From Trichocoleus sp. (lineage in GTDB: Bacteria; Cyanobacteriota; Cyanobacteriia; Elainellales; Elainellaceae), in contig DATNQD010000087.1 in assembly GCA_036702865.1 (NCBI GenBank), positions 62,001 to 126,000 of the forward strand: a stretch of 64,000 nt of DNA, given 5' to 3'. How positions within the stretch are numbered: position 1 is the first letter of the stretch; each line of letters begins with the position of its first letter. Below, piece after piece: positions 33,846 to 41,339 of this stretch. The notes under the pieces are model-generated. The model was given only the letters and a program-made list of their open reading frames with translations, was not told the origin of the DNA and made no database searches. The position numbers and the translations under genes are program-made.

Positions 33846-34313
33846 TTAGGGCTTGCAAATCCAGTTCCAGAATGGGTGTGTTTTGCCTTGAGTCCGGATG
33901 CGAATCACCTCCCGTTCCAACTGTTTGCGCTGTGCTGACGGTATCCCTATCAGCAGGTTCCGGCTCTGCCAAATAAGCGTGGCAACAGTGAAGCCAATAC
34001 AAAGCGATAAACCAAAAGCAGCAATGCGGTGATAAACAATGCCGTAGCGAACGGCTGTCCAGGTAAAGTAGTCTCGCAATAGGGCAATTTCGGAGCGCAA
34101 ATCCCAGAGACAGAATGGCGCTACAACGAACCAGAGCAATAGCACCAGGCTCCATCTGCCATAAACCATCGCTTGATGCAGTCGTTGCACCTGCCGCTCA
34201 AAGTTTAGATCGGTAAAGTACGGCTCTGTCGAGGAGGTATCTGCTGTTGTTGAACTGATTGGCTGGGGGGAGGGTTCGGGCGAAGTCATAGCGTTATTGA
34301 AAATTGGTGTCAT
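33846..34313 (-). CDS. two-helix membrane protein of unknown function
   Basis: I do not recognise a named family. The protein has a polar, Ser/Thr/Pro-rich N-terminus (about 45 residues), two membrane segments (SLVLLLWFVVAPFCLWDL near residues 55-72 and AAFGLSLCIGFTVATLIW near 99-116), and a short basic C-terminal helix. ATG 34313 begins the frame; ATG 34289 (TSPEPSPQ) is also possible. It lies upstream of the glycosidase gene on the same strand, with about 90 bases between, and diverges from the DUF2721-like gene, which is also a membrane protein. Confidence 0.7.
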   Translation of the reverse strand: MTPIFNNAMTSPEPSPQPISSTTADTSSTEPYFTDLNFERQVQRLHQAMVYGRWSLVLLLWFVVAPFCLWDLRSEIALLRDYFTWTAVRYGIVYHRIAAFGLSLCIGFTVATLIWQSRNLLIGIPSAQRKQLEREVIRIRTQGKTHPFWNWICKP

Positions 34314-34464: not shown

Positions 34465-35034
34465 ATGACCGTTGAACAAACCTCTCAACTGATTCAACTC
34501 ATCCTCAACTCGGGGCTGCTTGTCGCAATCTGTAGTGTTTTGATGGTTGGGCTCATGTTCCGCCACCTGGTAATTGGGTATCGGTTGCGCCTGTTGCGCC
34601 AAACCTATTTTGACTTGCTCACGGTTGCAATTCCTTTGCGTCACGATCGCCTGCTTCACCTCAAAATTCAACTGCGCGATCTGCGACATCACTATCGCCT
34701 GACCTGCTGTAGCACCTGGGCTGGCTGCACAGCGTTAATTTGCTCATTGCTGAGTATGCTGACGATGACCCTGAGATCGCTGATTGAAGCAAACGCCTTG
34801 ATCCCGATCGCTCTGGTGTTTTTTGTACTTGGGATCGGAATTTTGCTTGTCAGCATCGGGTTTGTCTGGCTCGATTTTCAGGCAGACGATCGATCCCTCC
34901 TGCAAGAAATTCAGTGGATTTTAACCAACCGCTCAATTCCTGTAACCCTAGCAGCACCTAAGCTAACGCTGCCTCACCGAGTTTCCCAACGCCGCCAATC
35001 AGGAGTGAATTCATCCGCATCCGGTATGGATTAA
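34465..35034 (+). CDS. DUF2721-like membrane protein
   Basis: A 189-residue protein with three predicted membrane segments: LILNSGLLVAICSVLMVGL near the N-terminus, AGCTALICSLLSMLTMTL mid-protein, and IALVFFVLGIGILLVSIGFVWL. Between them lies a basic cytoplasmic loop rich in Arg, Leu and His (RLRLLRQTYFDLL, then RHDRLLHLKIQLRDLRHHY), the pattern I associate with DUF2721. Function unknown. ATG 34465 is clear. It is followed at 91 bases by the PstS/DUF4912 gene on the same strand. Confidence 0.72.
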   Translation: MTVEQTSQLIQLILNSGLLVAICSVLMVGLMFRHLVIGYRLRLLRQTYFDLLTVAIPLRHDRLLHLKIQLRDLRHHYRLTCCSTWAGCTALICSLLSMLTMTLRSLIEANALIPIALVFFVLGIGILLVSIGFVWLDFQADDRSLLQEIQWILTNRSIPVTLAAPKLTLPHRVSQRRQSGVNSSASGMD

Positions 35035-35125: not shown

Positions 35126-38100
35126 ATGCTCCAAGGTAAAACTCCCTCGGCATTCATACTGGCGTTGCTTCTATCCTTTGCTGCCTCTCCCAAGCCCCTG
35201 GCAGCATTGTTCGTGACCGACCCCGCTCTGGCACAGTCTGCTGCAACACAAACTTCTTTTCCACCCCCCGATTCTGTCCCTAGCGGTTCCACTCTGCGGA
35301 TCAGCAGTTCAGACAGTATGTCCGCAACGAATCAGGCACTCAAACAAAAATTTGAGGCGCAGTACTCTGGGACAGCCGTTGAGACAGCGATGGGTAGCTC
35401 GGATGAAGCATTGAAGGCGGTTTTAGATGGCAAAGCAGATCTGGCAGCGATCGGCAGAGCTTTGACCGAGGCAGAAAAATCTCAAGGACTCGTCGGAGTG
35501 CCGATCAGTCGCGAAAAGATTGCGATAATCGTTAGCTCAGACAGCTTGTTTCAGAGCAACCTATCCTTTGAGCAGTTTGCCAGAATTTTCCGAGGAGAAA
35601 TTACCAATTGGTCTCAAGTTGGAGGCGCTGCGGGAAAAATTCGCTTCGTTGACCGACCCGAAACAAGTGATACTCGGCAAGCGCTGAGTCAATATCAGGT
35701 TTTTCGATCGGCTCCCTTTCAGGCAGGTAAGACTGCAACGCCTGTTGCTGAGGACAAAGCGGCTGCCGTCATTACCAATTTGGGACAGGATGGAATTAGC
35801 TATGCCGTTGCGAACCAGGTAACCACTCAACCTAACGTTCGCATTTTGTCGATGCATGGCACGCTTCCCACTAACCCGGCTTATCCCTACTCCCAACCTC
35901 GTAACTATGTTTACAAGCAGATGACAAGCCCGGTAGCCCAGGGATTTCTTGGCTTTGTCGCTGCTCCAATTGGGCAAGAGACGATCGCCCAAGCTGACAC
36001 ACTCGGAACTGCTACCGCCCCATCTGTCTTACTTGCAACAAACGCAGCCAGCTCTAGCTCAACTGACTCTGCCAGTGGTGCAATTGCCACAACAGGTTCC
36101 TCTCCTGCTGCAACTGAGTCCCCTATTGCAACTGCTTCACCAGACGCCACAGCTCCAACAACTGCTGCCACAAACGATCCAAATCAAGCAGGTTGGCTTC
36201 CCTGGCTCTTGCTGCCCTTGCTGCTGGGAGGTCTTTTTCTTTGGTGGCGACGACGATCGACTGCCGCAGAACCCTTACCTGGTCAGCCCGTTTCCCCATC
36301 TGCCCCGTCGGAAACCCTACCTCCTGCAAGTTCAACGTTAGCGGCGAGGGCTGGATCTGTCATTTCTGCCGATCGTCTGGAAACGATGAACGAGCGACCC
36401 GTTGAGACCGTCGAGCAGAATCCAGAGTTGCCGGAAGGTTCACCGGAAAGGTTGGCTGCTACGTCCTCTACAACGACACCGCCAATTAGCGATCCTTGGG
36501 TGGAGACGGCTGAAACCACAGACCTGCCGGATACAACCCTGCTGGACACAGCTCTGCCGGATACAACCCTGCCGGATACAACCCTGCCGGACAATGATGC
36601 GTCTCCTTTAGAGGGAGCAGCCTTCGTAGCCGCAGCCGGAGTCCCTGTCGCAGAAACCGATCGCTCAAGTCCGCCTATCGAAGCGCCCACCGCAGAAACA
36701 CCTGTTGTAGAAATACCTGCTGTAGAAGCACCTATCACAGAAACACCTGTCACAGAAACACCGATCGAATCCTCCACTCCATCACCGGAAGTCTTTACCA
36801 CTGAGACGCCTGCTACGCCTGAATTAACTACACCTGATTCAAACTTGGCGGAGTCAATCGCATCAACACCCGATCACACACCAACTGCTGCCGAAGCAGC
36901 CCCTGAGGTTGATGGCATCCTGAGTGCTGGAGAAGCTGCCTTGATTGCCGGAGCCGCTGCATTAGTCGCCGCGCAACCCGATATGGCTCACGCCGATGAT
37001 TCACAATCCACGATTGCGGCAGCAAAGTTTAACGTTGGGCAGTCGGACTTATCGAGCGAAGAACTGGCAACTGTCGATCTAGAACTGCCTTCACTGCCAA
37101 GTGGCTATGGTGAGACCCATATTGTCTTACTGCCGCGCGATCCACAGTGGGCTTACGCTTATTGGGACGCTCCAGGAGAACACCGAGAAGCGCTGCGTCG
37201 GGCTGGAGGACGTCGTCTGGCACTGCGCTTCTATGACATCACAGATATTGATCTCGCCCGGCAGAACCCTCATAGTCTTCAGCAGTATGACTGTGACGAA
37301 ATGACGCGAGATTGGTACATCCCTGTGCCCATCAGCGATCGGGACTATATTGCTGAAATCGGCTATGTCACCGAGGATGGCGGCTGGCTGATGCTGGCTC
37401 GATCGCTCCCCATCCACATTCCTCCGGTCTATCCCACAGACTGGTATGAAGAGCAGTTCACAACCATCGATTGGCAAGAAGACCTGCACGACAAAACGGT
37501 TCTGGAGCTTACGCCTCCTGGCAAACGAAAGACTTTTGATAACCCCATTTACGATCGCATCTTTGGTTTAAACGAAGCGGCTGAGGCACAGCGAGTCGCA
37601 GGTTCTCTGTTTGGCTCAATGCATCAGGTCTCTCAAACTATCAGTTCTTTTGCTTCGGGAGCTGGCATAGTGGAACGCACAGAATCTGGCGTGGGTATGT
37701 CCGGCATCGGCATGACCATTCCCACCCTATCTGGTGCTGGGATGATGTCGGGTATTGGGATATTAGCTTATACAGAATCTGGGATCGGCATGTCTGGTAT
37801 TGGCATGGGAATCCCAACTCTATCCGGCATCGGCATGGTGTCTGGCGTGGGTATGGGTATTGCTGGAATGTCTGGAGTGGGCATGTCTGGCATGGGAATC
37901 CCAACCCTATCTGGCATTGGCATGATGTCTGGAGTTGGCATGTCTGGCATCGGTATGGGAGTCCCGACTCTGTCCGGCGTGGGCATGATGTCGGGTATTG
38001 GCATGTACAGCACATCCGGTATCGGGATGTATACAACCTCAGGAGTCGGCATGTACAGCACGTCTGGTGTTGGCATGTATACCTTATCTGGCATGGGTAT

Positions 38101-38419
38101 GTCAGGGGTTGGCTTTTCTGCTTCAATGCCGCCCATTCGTCCACGCAAATTCTGGCTGATTGCGGATGCAGAACTGATTGTCTATGGGGCAACCGAACCC
38201 GATGCAATCGTCACTATTGCTGGACAACCCGTCCAACTTGCACCAGATGGCACGTTCCGCTTTCAAATGTCCTTCCAGGACGGATTAATTGACTATCCCA
38301 TCATGGCAACTGCCGCTGACGGAGAACAGAATCGGGCAATTCACATGAAGTTCGTCCGCGAGACTCCTAGCCGGAATACGAACACAAAAGAAGAAGCAAC
38401 GGATGAATGGCCCAACTAA
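35126..38419 (+). CDS. PstS-like / DUF4912 protein with SG(I/V)GM pentad array
   Basis: A 1097-residue composite. Residues 1-37 form a signal peptide ending DPALAQS. Residues about 55-290 are a phosphate-binding-protein-like (PBP/PstS) domain (STLRISSSDSM..., VLDGKADLAAIGRAL, FRGEITNWSQVGG). A low-complexity linker leads to a membrane segment near 354-376 (GWLPWLLLPLLLGGLFLWW). Acidic Pro/Thr/Glu repeats follow (DTTLPDTTLPD; ETPVTETP). DUF4912 lies near 663-790 (THIVLLPRDPQWAYAYWD). Residues 854-997 hold twenty SG(x)GM/I/F pentads, mostly SGIGM or SGVGM. A final Ig-like domain (LIADAELIVYGATEPDA) ends near 1081. If the topology holds, the binding domain is periplasmic and DUF4912 cytoplasmic. 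The function is unknown. Confidence 0.85.
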   Translation: MLQGKTPSAFILALLLSFAASPKPLAALFVTDPALAQSAATQTSFPPPDSVPSGSTLRISSSDSMSATNQALKQKFEAQYSGTAVETAMGSSDEALKAVLDGKADLAAIGRALTEAEKSQGLVGVPISREKIAIIVSSDSLFQSNLSFEQFARIFRGEITNWSQVGGAAGKIRFVDRPETSDTRQALSQYQVFRSAPFQAGKTATPVAEDKAAAVITNLGQDGISYAVANQVTTQPNVRILSMHGTLPTNPAYPYSQPRNYVYKQMTSPVAQGFLGFVAAPIGQETIAQADTLGTATAPSVLLATNAASSSSTDSASGAIATTGSSPAATESPIATASPDATAPTTAATNDPNQAGWLPWLLLPLLLGGLFLWWRRRSTAAEPLPGQPVSPSAPSETLPPASSTLAARAGSVISADRLETMNERPVETVEQNPELPEGSPERLAATSSTTTPPISDPWVETAETTDLPDTTLLDTALPDTTLPDTTLPDNDASPLEGAAFVAAAGVPVAETDRSSPPIEAPTAETPVVEIPAVEAPITETPVTETPIESSTPSPEVFTTETPATPELTTPDSNLAESIASTPDHTPTAAEAAPEVDGILSAGEAALIAGAAALVAAQPDMAHADDSQSTIAAAKFNVGQSDLSSEELATVDLELPSLPSGYGETHIVLLPRDPQWAYAYWDAPGEHREALRRAGGRRLALRFYDITDIDLARQNPHSLQQYDCDEMTRDWYIPVPISDRDYIAEIGYVTEDGGWLMLARSLPIHIPPVYPTDWYEEQFTTIDWQEDLHDKTVLELTPPGKRKTFDNPIYDRIFGLNEAAEAQRVAGSLFGSMHQVSQTISSFASGAGIVERTESGVGMSGIGMTIPTLSGAGMMSGIGILAYTESGIGMSGIGMGIPTLSGIGMVSGVGMGIAGMSGVGMSGMGIPTLSGIGMMSGVGMSGIGMGVPTLSGVGMMSGIGMYSTSGIGMYTTSGVGMYSTSGVGMYTLSGMGMSGVGFSASMPPIRPRKFWLIADAELIVYGATEPDAIVTIAGQPVQLAPDGTFRFQMSFQDGLIDYPIMATAADGEQNRAIHMKFVRETPSRNTNTKEEATDEWPN
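37685..38116 (+). repeat. coding tandem array of twenty SG(I/V)GM pentads
   Basis: This 432-base stretch of the DUF4912 gene encodes pentads SGVGM, SGIGM, SGAGM, SGIGI, SGMGI and SGVGF separated by short spacers such as IPTL, M, YST and YTT. The spacing is regular enough to see a higher-order unit (SGIGMG-IPT-LSGIGM). Codon choice differs between copies (GGC, GGT, GGA and GGG for Gly), so the repeat is conserved in protein rather than recently duplicated in DNA. The antisense reading frame here is an artefact of the repeat. Confidence 0.9.
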
Positions 38420-38479: not shown

Positions 38480-39346
38480 TTACCGTCCGATCGCCGAAGC
38501 AGAAGCCTTCCTGGTCTTTTGGGTCAGAATACCGGAACTGGGGCTAAGCAGTAGAGCCAGCATAAACAAGCCCGATGCCACCAAAACGATCGCGGCTCCA
38601 GAAGGCAGATTGTAATAGTAGCTGAGATACATGCCGCTAATGCTGGCGATCGTCCCAACTCCTGCACCCACCATCATCATCTGATGAAATCGCGGTACAA
38701 GTAAATAGGCAGTTGCAGCAGGTGTGATTAGCAGTGACAAAACCAGAATGACGCCAACCGCTTTCATACTGGCAACAACTGTTAAAGCCACTAACACCAT
38801 CAACCCTGAGTTAAACCAGTTGACGGGCAATCCTGTCGCTTGAGCACCGAGGGCATCAAAGCTGAAAAAGAGCAATTCTTTATAGAGCAAGACAACGACC
38901 AGCAGCACAAATGCTGAAATGATGGCTGTGTCGCGTACTTCGCTACTGGTAACTCCCAGAATATTGCCAAACAAAAAGTGATTCAGGTCGATCTTGTTAT
39001 CTTTCTGGACGATCGTAATCAGCGTTACACCCAGAGCAAAGAAGGCAGAAAAGACAATTCCCATCGCGGCATCTTCTTTAATTGGCGATCGGGTGTGAAT
39101 CCAGCCAATGATTACTGCACTGATGATTGCGGCAATAAATGCCCCCAGGTATAAATTTGCGCCCACAATAAAGGCAATTGCTAACCCTGGTAAGAGCGAG
39201 TGACTGATTGCATCACCCAACAGCGCCATCCGCCGCACCACTAGATAGCTGCCCATCACCGAACAAAGAATGCCAACCAGAACTGCCACAATCAGCGATC
39301 GTTGCATGAAGCCGTACTGGAGTGGGTCGAGAAGGATGTGCAGCAT
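38480..39346 (-). CDS. metal (Mn/Zn) ABC transporter permease
   Basis: The integral membrane channel of a ZnuB/MntB-type importer. After a short N-terminus (ILLDPLQYGFMQRSLIVAVL) there are eight or so hydrophobic segments, with the family motifs GSYLVVRRMALLGDAISHSLLPG near residue 45, LVGILCSVMGS and VILVLSLLITPAATAYLL. ATG 39346 (MLHILLDPL) is chosen over ATG 39391. The gene lies downstream of the ATPase gene with about 95 bases between, so both are one transcript, divergent from the binding-protein gene. Whether the metal is Mn or Zn cannot be told from this subunit. Confidence 0.92.
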   Translation of the reverse strand: MLHILLDPLQYGFMQRSLIVAVLVGILCSVMGSYLVVRRMALLGDAISHSLLPGLAIAFIVGANLYLGAFIAAIISAVIIGWIHTRSPIKEDAAMGIVFSAFFALGVTLITIVQKDNKIDLNHFLFGNILGVTSSEVRDTAIISAFVLLVVVLLYKELLFFSFDALGAQATGLPVNWFNSGLMVLVALTVVASMKAVGVILVLSLLITPAATAYLLVPRFHQMMMVGAGVGTIASISGMYLSYYYNLPSGAAIVLVASGLFMLALLLSPSSGILTQKTRKASASAIGR

Positions 39347-39442
39347 GGGAATGTTGAGGGAGAGCAAGACACGGGGAAAAGACAACGGCAATGAATCCGT
39401 TAGATTTTGAGAAACTTTTGAGCAATCTTTCAGAAGGACAAA

Positions 39443-40246
39443 TTAGGCTGCTTTGCTATTGAAGAAGCTAACATGACCCCCGTAAGCGCGACTCATATTT
39501 TCAACCGTCAAAACTTCGGAGCGATCGCCCATTGCAATCAGTTCACGGTTGAGCAGGAGGAGGCGATCAAAGTGGGTAATCGATTCACCCAGATCATGGT
39601 TCACGACTAGCACAGTTTTGCCCTGGTCAGCCAGGTCGCGGAACATGTCAAACAGGAGATCCTCGGTTTTTTGGTCGATGCCGACAAAGGGTTCGTCAAA
39701 GAAGAATACTTCTGCTTCTTGTGCCAGAGACCGGGCAAGAAAGACGCGCTGTTGCTGTCCACCAGAGAGCTGTCCGATCGGTCGATCGCGGTATTCTGCC
39801 ATGCCCACTTTTTCTATCGCTTCTGCGGCAACCCGCCGACTGGGAACAGAAAATCGGCTGAAGTAGCCCGTTTTGCGAACTCTACCCATCAAAACAACAT
39901 CCCAAACGGTTGCCGGAAACGTCCAATCGATTTGCGATCGTTGGGGCACATAAGCGACTCGCTCCAGTTGTTCTGTGAGGGGGCGAGCACCGTAGAAGGT
40001 TGTTCCTGCAATTGATGGAATTAAGCCCAGCATTGCTTTAATCAGCGTACTTTTGCCTGCCCCATTGGGACCGAAAATGCCGATCAATTGACCAGGATGA
40101 ATCTTGAAGCTGACATTCTGTAGCGCTTGAACCATGCGATATTCAACGCTTAACTGTTGCACAGCGATCGTCCCTGGAGCGAAGGCGTGAACCTGGGAAC
40201 GGGCTGGAAGATGCTGAAGCTGGTGCAGCGAGGTGAGGGAGTTCAT
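39443..40246 (-). CDS. metal (Mn/Zn) ABC transporter ATP-binding protein
   Basis: The cytoplasmic nucleotide-binding subunit of the importer. Walker A is GPNGAGKST, the Q-loop region YVPQRSQIDWTFP, the ABC signature LSGGQQQRVFLARSLA, Walker B EVFFFDEPFVGID, and the switch His lies in LVVNHDLGES. About 25 N-terminal residues precede the ABC fold. It has its own ATG at 40246. It shares a spacer of about 100 bases with the divergent binding-protein gene, in which three ATGAAA-centred repeats are seen. Confidence 0.94.
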   Translation of the reverse strand: MNSLTSLHQLQHLPARSQVHAFAPGTIAVQQLSVEYRMVQALQNVSFKIHPGQLIGIFGPNGAGKSTLIKAMLGLIPSIAGTTFYGARPLTEQLERVAYVPQRSQIDWTFPATVWDVVLMGRVRKTGYFSRFSVPSRRVAAEAIEKVGMAEYRDRPIGQLSGGQQQRVFLARSLAQEAEVFFFDEPFVGIDQKTEDLLFDMFRDLADQGKTVLVVNHDLGESITHFDRLLLLNRELIAMGDRSEVLTVENMSRAYGGHVSFFNSKAA

Positions 40247-40275
40247 GAGGAGCGTTGCAAGGAGAAAGGTGAAAC

Positions 40276-40320
40276 AATTATGAAAACGAATCTACCATAA
40301 ATTATGAAACCAATATGAAA
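40276..40320. promoter_or_regulatory. AATTATGAAA direct repeats in the metal-importer divergent promoter
   Basis: The spacer between the divergent ATPase and binding-protein genes has AATTATGAAA at 40276-40285 and 40300-40309 and AATATGAAA at 40312-40320. Aligned at ATGAAA, the spacings are 24 and 11 bases, close to two and one helical turns. They lie between both start codons and could bind a metal-responsive regulator. They do not resemble the palindromic Fur/Zur box, so a different regulator, such as a ManR-type response regulator, may be involved. Confidence 0.35.
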
Positions 40321-40349
40321 AGATGGGTTCTGTCTCAAGGGAGGAATGG

Positions 40350-41339
40350 ATGAAATCAAGCGACAGAGTTTTGCAGATAAAAGGTCTATCTCAATATGTA
40401 AGTTTGTTTACAGCGATCGGGCTGTTGGGGCTAGGGCTGATTAGCTGTGACAGTTCTCGTCAGGCTACCAATGATGGCAAGCCGAATGTTGTAGCAACCA
40501 GTACGCTCATTACCGACTGGGCTAACGAAATCAGTCAGCAGGAAATTGACCTGACCAGCATCCTTAAACCTGGAAACGATCCTCACATCTATGAGCCTGT
40601 ACCCAGCGATACACAAGCAATGGAGGACGCCCAACTCATTCTCTACAACGGCTATAATCTCGAACCGGGGCTGATTCGCTTGATGAATAGTGCTGGAGCC
40701 AATGCTAGGAAAGTTGCCGTTGGGGAAGTTGTGCAACCCCTTGAGCTCAAGAAAGAAGGGCAAACGGTTCCTGATCCGCATGTTTGGGGTAGCGTGGAAA
40801 ACTCGATCGCCATGGTCAAAGCAACAAGGGACGCATTAATCGAGCTTTCGCCAGACGATCGCGCGCAATTTACCCAAAATGCCGACAAACTGATCGCAGA
40901 CATGGAACGCCTTCATACCTGGATTCAGCAGCAAATCGCTACCATTCCACCAGCGAAGCGCAAACTGGTTACAACCCACGACGCCTTTCAATACTACGCA
41001 AGGGACTATGGTTTGACGGTTTCTGGGACGCTCATCGGCATCAGCACGGAAGAACAGCCCAGCGCTCAAACTCTGCAAAGATTGGTGGAATCTATTAAAT
41101 CGCTTGGCATTCCGACGATTTTTGCTGAAACGACGATTAACCCCCAACTCATCAGCACAGCTGCTCAAGAAGCAGGCGTAAAGCTGGCACAACAACACCT
41201 TTATTCTGATTCGATCGGCACACCCGGCAGCGAGGGAGACACCTATATCAAAATGATGGTGGCGAATACAAAGGCGATCGTGGAGAATCTGGGCGGCAAG
41301 TACGAACCCTTTAAGTCGGTTGCAGATGTCGGGAATTAG
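40350..41339 (+). CDS. metal (Mn/Zn) ABC transporter substrate-binding lipoprotein
   Basis: Cluster A-I binding protein (ZnuA/MntC type). A signal with lipobox LGLISC marks a lipoprotein anchored at the outer face of the plasma membrane. Metal ligands are visible: His in DPHIYEP, His in PDPHVWGS, Glu in FAETTINP and Asp in YSDSIGTPGSEGDTY. There is no His-rich loop, which favours Mn over Zn. ATG 40350 follows a good ribosome-binding site (AGGGAGG); the frame opens at ATG 40323 without one. The gene diverges from the ATPase and permease genes and is followed by rpmF 83 bases later. Confidence 0.9.
   Translation: MKSSDRVLQIKGLSQYVSLFTAIGLLGLGLISCDSSRQATNDGKPNVVATSTLITDWANEISQQEIDLTSILKPGNDPHIYEPVPSDTQAMEDAQLILYNGYNLEPGLIRLMNSAGANARKVAVGEVVQPLELKKEGQTVPDPHVWGSVENSIAMVKATRDALIELSPDDRAQFTQNADKLIADMERLHTWIQQQIATIPPAKRKLVTTHDAFQYYARDYGLTVSGTLIGISTEEQPSAQTLQRLVESIKSLGIPTIFAETTINPQLISTAAQEAGVKLAQQHLYSDSIGTPGSEGDTYIKMMVANTKAIVENLGGKYEPFKSVADVGN

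Follow-up and report, generated by a model that had tools for sequence, protein, structure and literature searches.

The DNA analysed here, termed the window, is a stretch of 64,000 nucleotides from Trichocoleus sp. (GenBank assembly GCA_036702865.1, contig DATNQD010000087.1, positions 62,001 to 126,000 of the forward strand). It encodes a 1097-residue protein, the long (PBP-type) member of a set of DUF4912 paralogues, in which an array of SGxG units lies between DUF4912 and a C-terminal immunoglobulin (Ig)-like domain. The features of this gene, in window positions, with transmembrane (TM) and other hydrophobic stretches scored by Kyte-Doolittle (KD) hydropathy, tandem repeats by Tandem Repeats Finder (TRF), and folds by AlphaFold2 (AF2), are as follows.

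35126..38419, + strand: open reading frame of 1097 residues, long (PBP-type) DUF4912 paralogue, a single frame
35126..35236, + strand: probable signal peptide, residues 1-37 (KD 1.75 for the hydrophobic stretch at residue 10)
35282..35962, + strand: PstS-like substrate-binding domain, residues 53-279 (Pfam PBP_like_2, E 4.6e-29)
36188..36244, + strand: TM segment, residues 355-373, followed by RRR (KD 1.67)
36523..36591, + strand: TTLPD-type tandem repeat of period 15 in an acidic Pro/Thr linker (TRF score 110)
36694..36766, + strand: ETPV/ETPI-type period-15 repeats (TRF, two rows)
36917..36973, + strand: Ala-rich (Ala/Gly-rich) hydrophobic stretch before DUF4912, residues 598-616 (KD 1.88)
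37106..37453, + strand: DUF4912 domain, residues 661-776 (PF16258, E 1.7e-40; AF2)
37580..37621, + strand: conserved AEAQRVAGSLFGSM element opening the post-DUF4912 linker, residues 819-832 (conserved columns, alignments A1-A3)
37655..37669, + strand: first seed copy SGAGI, residue 844, upstream of the interval marked in an earlier sequence-only reading (sequence scan)
37685..38116, + strand: array of 20 SGxG(M/I/F) units, residues 854-997 (motif count)
38141..38365, + strand: C-terminal Ig-like beta-sandwich, residues ~1006-1080 (AF2; conserved in relatives)

The repeat array and the protein that carries it

The array holds exactly the twenty SGxG(M/I/F) units counted in the sequence-only reading, with Met at position 5 in 17, Ile in two, and Phe in one; 5000 shuffles of the array residues give 1.9 SGxG on average and never more than 7. 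Eighteen of its twenty 15-base units differ, using four Gly and four Ser codons, and a search of the host's own genome with the tandem DNA pattern of the motif returned 22 matches, 14 in the window gene and eight in a paralogue, with none for the reversed control. The methionine every five residues of the sequence-only reading does not hold, with only 5 of the 19 SGxG intervals and 7 of the 22 Met-Met intervals equal to five; the SGxG intervals are 5, 10, and 8 (five times each) and 6 (four times), running 5-10-6-10 (31 residues) exactly twice, then 5-8-6, 5-10-6, four 8s, and one 5. Met accounts for 23 of the 144 residues (16%) and Pro for 2.8%, VPG is absent from the window array, and its grand average of hydropathy is 0.84 compared with 1.20 for VPGVG.

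The layout of the remainder of the protein proposed from sequence was recovered, with PBP_like_2, the hydrophobic segment at 355-373, DUF4912, and a beta-sandwich following the array. The protein passes the gathering score of PF16258 (138.4 bits against 29.4), with the PstS-family models TIGR02136 (73.5 against 206.6 bits) and TIGR00975 (17.3 against 205) below cut-off, and Rho_N (PF07498) is not among its Pfam matches at E 0.01. Of three relatives, two give weak Glucodextran_B matches for the C-terminal Ig-like region (E 0.18 and 0.013). Signal cleavage, judged by eye, probably occurs at ALAQ, and the positive-inside rule, applied to the one TM segment and its RRR, suggests an N-out/C-in topology.

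An AF2 model of residues 626-1097, built on a shallow alignment of 24 sequences, has a mean predicted local distance difference test (pLDDT) score of 50 and a predicted template modelling score of 0.29. The model is confident in DUF4912 and in the C-terminal sandwich, most of which scores 77-90 by block, and a short helix overlaps the AEAQRVAGSLFGSM element, whereas blocks within the array average 28-38 and secondary structure is absent there. The DUF4912 fold resembles fibronectin III, the top row being 8fn8_B (Z 9.2, root mean square deviation 3.4, 94 aligned residues) among many tied rows, and Foldseek searches with a Nostoc DUF4912 model likewise return many fibronectin III domains; this likeness reveals no function. 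No match to the array was observed among solved structures.

These observations bear on two ordered arrangements. The beta-solenoid proposed in the sequence-only reading is disfavoured by the irregular spacing and by the low pLDDT and missing secondary structure on the 24-sequence alignment, and the window protein has no match at E 0.01 to PF00805, the pentapeptide repeat proteins. A silk-like fibre, in which Gly alternating with small residues would stack into beta-sheet, as in the GAGAGS of silk fibroin, would suit the alternating Gly and the low Pro; however, odd and even spacings are mixed, breaking the alternation, and no strands are predicted in the array, albeit on a shallow alignment, leaving this fibre improbable.

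Seed motif, amplification, and selection

Cyanobacterial DUF4912 (PF16258) proteins align with the window protein over DUF4912, the linker, and the Ig-like C-terminus. The short proteins of this family consist of Rho_N, DUF4912, a linker, and the Ig-like end, with Rho_N and DUF4912 recognised by Pfam in L242, L217, and L199 (45.4 bits for Rho_N in L242, cut-off 24.9) and the Ig-like end by AF2 in L242. In comparison, the window protein has a signal peptide, PstS-like domain, and TM segment instead of Rho_N, and an expanded linker. The loci named here are those that score best in similarity to the window, the top 80 of 551 relatives; from a 141-genome sample of the class Cyanobacteriia the loci of ~65 genomes were used, with the short-protein set no census, and the 120 short proteins compared were chosen for having Rho_N and DUF4912 in the same frame.

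Within this set, the 78 complete short proteins that are unexpanded (<6 copies) carry mostly two (26 proteins) or three (37) SGxG copies in the linker, with four in nine, five in four, and none or one in a single protein each, such that 76 of the 78 retain two or more of these seeds. No more than 25 residues separate the final SGxG from the Ig-like domain in 76 of the 78, and SGAGI at residue 844 of the window protein is the positional counterpart of SGVG in the FPSGVGMWA of relatives. In alignment A3 (29 sequences) the seed positions S288, G289, G291, S304, G305, G310, and G312 are invariant, although an AF2 model on 29 sequences gives pLDDT <50 over residues 229-329. A conserved motif in a linker lacking a predicted fold resembles a short linear motif, which the seed may therefore be.

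Expansion to six or more copies is observed in 40 of the 120 short proteins, requiring at least 11 state changes on a quick tree of Rho_N and DUF4912 from which the array was excluded, and at least five on a second tree of 82 proteins (20 expanded) built on DUF4912 and the Ig-like domain. A single origin of the short-protein arrays of family f1 is not rejected (approximately unbiased test, p 0.278), and the best quick tree separates them. The units differ between lineages: the window's family mixes lengths of 5, 6, 8, and 10 residues, those of f10 (YTQSGVG), f4 (TTSGVGL), and Okeania mostly have 7, and those of f24 mostly 9. Copy number spans 0-61 among the proteins counted, with that of the Okeania array L207 inexact because of a run of N inside it. 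Sequence comparison thus supports the window array being one of several independent amplifications of the linker motif SG[V/I/A]G.

The composition of arrays with at least ten copies stays within narrow bounds for some residues, with Gly at 22-40% (mostly ~31%), Ser at 13-22%, Lys+Arg and Asp+Glu at 0-6% each, and almost no Cys. Position-5 Met ranges from 8 to 95% over 24 such arrays of short proteins, with Tyr, Leu, or Gln elsewhere, and is only 8-31% in L207, L182, L157, L160, L206, and L141; the highest Met content of an array, up to 30%, is that of Spirulina L174. Other linker motifs are also repeated. The linker of L217 (Microseira wollei NIES-4236), the one unexpanded protein with zero SGxG, carries 69 SSY/SSF/SSH and 0% Met in that array, recalling Tyr-rich low-complexity domains. 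In L032/L082, L034/L112, L050, L186, and L198, repetition affects QHVPGS-type heptads immediately before the seed, and these sometimes replace SGxG.

Selection was assessed on units anchored on SG within the linker, scoring codons 3-5. In the window linker, the proportions of synonymous (pS) and nonsynonymous (pN) differences are 0.58 and 0.19 (pN/pS 0.32), and codon 4 encodes Gly in all 21 SG-anchored units, using four Gly codons; pN/pS is 0.22-0.58 across 20 rows (19 genes, L207 being counted in two frames). The near-saturated pS indicates old units, in which loss of Gly should be visible if neutral, and the motif looks selected because Gly is retained at codon 4 while synonymous sites approach saturation. 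Purifying selection on the array glycines is thus supported from the codons, in agreement with the selection on the protein proposed in the sequence-only reading.

Natural variation at this one site amounts to an allele series, ranging from 2 to ~60 copies, with Met, Tyr, Leu, and Gln versions and a Ser-Tyr substitute, which would make the sticker grammar of disordered linkers testable by allele swaps.

Proposed self-association and competing explanations

Our leading, still tentative, reading is that the array is a multivalent low-complexity region for self-association, amplified from a linker seed of 2-4 copies, with the window protein a putative membrane-anchored partner. SG[V/I/A]G, usually present in 2-4 copies between DUF4912 and the Ig-like domain, would have been amplified in tandem, the copies acting as weak interchangeable stickers or spacers, such that more copies may give higher valency and, with it, self-association, a condensate, or a gel. 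The window protein would be anchored with its PstS-like domain outside, its TM segment in the membrane, and DUF4912, array, and Ig-like domain in the cytoplasm, where arrays shared with a soluble Rho_N-DUF4912-array-Ig paralogue may make the two co-assemble at the membrane; RNA, bound to the Rho_N of the latter, perhaps takes part. We infer self-association, disorder of the array in solution, the topology, the co-assembly, and the role of RNA. A gel or condensate would be the best of the functions listed in the sequence-only reading, and it is more likely that the array repeats help proteins to cluster than that they bind metal.

The host genome contains five DUF4912 sites, one of which (G000:C59, L121) encodes a paralogue with an N-terminal Rho_N (45.1 bits) and its own array of 20 copies. 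A second PBP-type gene of this genome (G000:C64:111065-113251) encodes two DUF4912 domains and has no array-pattern match. In the 26 genomes with countable copies of both paralogues (24 of f1 and two of f14, with G001 left out, its long copy being cut), both are expanded in 14, neither in 11, and the long one alone in one (G031), a distribution which would fit a joint function of the two. Statistical coupling of the two arrays was rejected as a claim, being confounded by clade. Array nucleotide 12-mers are closer within a genome than between genomes (p 0.00015), for which codon usage is a possible cause, and gene conversion between a genome's two arrays was set aside because the protein-level signal is lacking.

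Several points weigh against self-association of paired arrays. Copy number differs between highly similar proteins (~0.04 changes per column), with 41 copies in G185 and 61 in G290, and such fast change among similar proteins is the pattern expected of neutral slippage. Retention of codon-4 Gly is less complete elsewhere (53/70 in Arthrospira L199, the lowest, and 37/42 in L097), and, because units are anchored on SG, the selection test takes their first two codons as given. The AF2 alignments are shallow (24 and 29 sequences), and the low Pro departs from elastin-type repeats. The pairing of the paralogues comes mostly from one clade, with two independent pairs and no statistical power, and array protein 6-mers are no closer within than between genomes (permutation p 0.22). 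Furthermore, the f10 genomes G185, G283, and G290 have large short-protein arrays together with a TM-DUF4912 relative that lacks a PBP match, array, and Ig-like domain, which speaks against a strict requirement for both. Additionally, the Ala-rich stretch at 598-616, if a second span, would put the array outside, leaving the topology uncertain. A second span is doubted because a similar stretch precedes each of the two DUF4912 copies of L009 and L025 (by eye), where spans would place the copies on opposite sides. The TM-DUF4912 relatives of f10 (L158, L149, and L161) carry long tandem acidic repeats in place of the array and Ig-like part.

One alternative is a neutral elastic linker, with 2-4 near-identical seeds slipping in replication, any uncharged flexible linker tolerated, and arrays gained and lost while serving no function themselves. 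The range of 0-61 copies, the 41 and 61 copies of similar proteins, the amplification of three different linker motifs (QHVPGS, SSY, and SGxG), and the lack of a predicted fold in the array all favour it; however, Gly is retained despite near-saturated synonymous sites, two or more seeds are kept in 76 of the 78 unexpanded proteins, and low charge is maintained in independent arrays. We consider this explanation unlikely on balance, albeit one of real weight. The sequence-only reading would have regarded the array as a neutral insert had close relatives lacked it while keeping everything else, or had copy number varied freely with no structure or binding, and this is partly borne out, with 9 of the 24 same-family genomes that have counts for both paralogues lacking the expansion and keeping the rest, and with the spread of 41 to 61 copies; the seeds retained by the unexpanded proteins speak against plain neutrality.

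Met has been invoked in two further ways. In a redox switch, by analogy with yeast ataxin-2/Pbp1, Met oxidation would dissolve the assembly of Met-rich arrays and Msr would restore it, for which the Met content of the window array (16%) and of Spirulina L174, the oxygenic host, and the Pbp1 precedent (PMC8394241) can be cited. The low position-5 Met of the six arrays listed above and the 0% Met of the SSY array argue otherwise, and because Met is low or absent in these arrays the switch, which we regard as improbable, would at best be lineage-specific. The same 8-95% range of position-5 Met over 24 short-protein arrays speaks against Met as an obligatory form of the reactive-oxygen sink suggested in the sequence-only reading.

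The binding of soft metals (Cu/Ag) by Met at regular spacing, also suggested there, has in its favour the 23 Met in 144 residues and the Zn/Mn-type ATP-binding cassette (ABC) transporter genes that adjoin the window gene. Met-Met spacings of 2 and 3 are common in Cu sites; in the window array each occurs once in 22 intervals, and Met is not conserved across arrays. Among 28 long-paralogue loci (several of them short) compared with the transporter proteins, the ZnuA-like protein matches at one (L071), the ATPase at three (L071, L080, and L082), and the permease at none. Metal binding thus appears very improbable, and a metal link via the adjoining transporter was rejected, such genes rarely lying close to the relatives.

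The transporter genes (permease, ATPase, and divergent ZnuA-like binding protein) lie downstream of the window gene at 38480-41339. Elsewhere in the window, a small protein lacking a Pfam match (33846-34313) recurs near 10 of the 28 long-paralogue loci, and a DUF2721-like protein (34465-35034) near three.

The DUF4912 scaffold and known systems

DUF4912 is found in 139 of the 141 sampled Cyanobacteriia genomes (E <=0.001) and in 151 of 291 genomes of the phylum (148 above cut-off), and Rho_N in 136 and 144 respectively (135 of the latter above cut-off). Full-length Rho (TIGR00767) is above cut-off in none of the 141 class genomes and in eight of the 291, all outside the class, with weak sub-cut-off matches in nearly all. 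Outside the class, ten genomes chosen for having DUF4912 or Rho were inspected, of which nine contain DUF4912, with Rho_N in the same frame in three (G063, G047, and G050). Six of the ten DUF4912 loci of these genomes were read: L257 and L259 share the Ig-like end, with 0 and 1 SGxG, L263 ends within the linker (0 copies), and the C-termini of L258, L260, and L261 are of other kinds (1 copy each). From these few sequences, the scaffold looks older than Cyanobacteriia, with repeated SGxG seeds probably arising near the base of the class. Simple replacement of Rho by Rho_N-DUF4912 proteins is disfavoured because the Rho-bearing G063, G047, and G050 already have Rho_N and DUF4912 in one frame.

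Against solved structures, profile A3 matches two Rho chains only, in their N-terminal parts (3l0o, E 7.5e-4; 7oqh, E 0.0092). The short protein has no match among plasmid sequences, and a PHROGs search returned only weak Rho_N-region and phosphate-transporter matches. Near the short gene, 12 of 40 loci carry a 755-residue protein (J-domain-like by eye), and 11 carry the next commonest neighbour.

In the open-licence literature searched, no study of the DUF4912 family was found, the match to its name being a cotton expression table, and SGVGM gives matches that look unrelated. Rho_N-DUF4912-Ig proteins occur throughout the sampled Cyanobacteriia, lacking a described function in the literature searched, and the array draws attention to this class-wide protein of Rho-less cyanobacteria. 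A far-reaching proposal is that the short Rho_N-DUF4912-Ig protein is a putative core factor of Rho-less Cyanobacteriia that binds RNA and serves in 3'-end formation or decay, with SGxG arrays in it and in the membrane-anchored partner setting condensation and tethering. We consider this a long shot; if true, it would provide a class-wide candidate for transcript ends unexplained by canonical termination.

The Rho_N of the chloroplast protein RHON1 sits at the C-terminus, unlike that of the paralogue. RHON1 is described as an RNA-binding Rho_N protein (PMC13289151), and the likeness of the paralogue considered here is that in Rho_N. The same paper, of 2026, describes cyanobacteria as lacking Rho, with ~80% of S. 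elongatus transcription-unit ends reported as non-canonical, and reports that BLAST searches with RHON1 gave no homologue in S. elongatus and only weak matches in the phylum (PMC13289151). Our profile search, in contrast, recovers Rho_N in S. elongatus, which was among the controls, as well as in the 136 class genomes. Nostoc 7120 all2705, a possible counterpart of the short protein, is labelled 'Rho termination factor' in a proteomics table (PMC8147232).

The array itself has counterparts in other repeat proteins. Elastin (VPGVG), abductin (Gly/Met), and silk fibroin (GAGAGS) are short repeat proteins which the window array resembles in its short Gly-rich repeats and low charge. In contrast to these, it contains little Pro, is bacterial, and is probably intracellular; no homology is claimed. 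In yeast Pbp1 the Met-rich region forms droplets (PMC8394241). The window array is similarly Met-rich, aromatic-poor, and of low complexity, although Met is not kept among independent cyanobacterial arrays. A parallel to the proposed self-association comes from Rho, with a disordered insert driving phase separation of Bacteroides Rho, and two Lachnospiraceae Rho carrying short tandem repeats (PMC10284900). Unlike these, the proteins described here, for which phase separation is a proposal, lack the Rho motor and have uncharged Gly/Ser/Val repeats; like them, they combine a fast-varying, sometimes tandem-repeated, probably disordered region with the N-terminal helix bundle of Rho, here borne by the paralogue.

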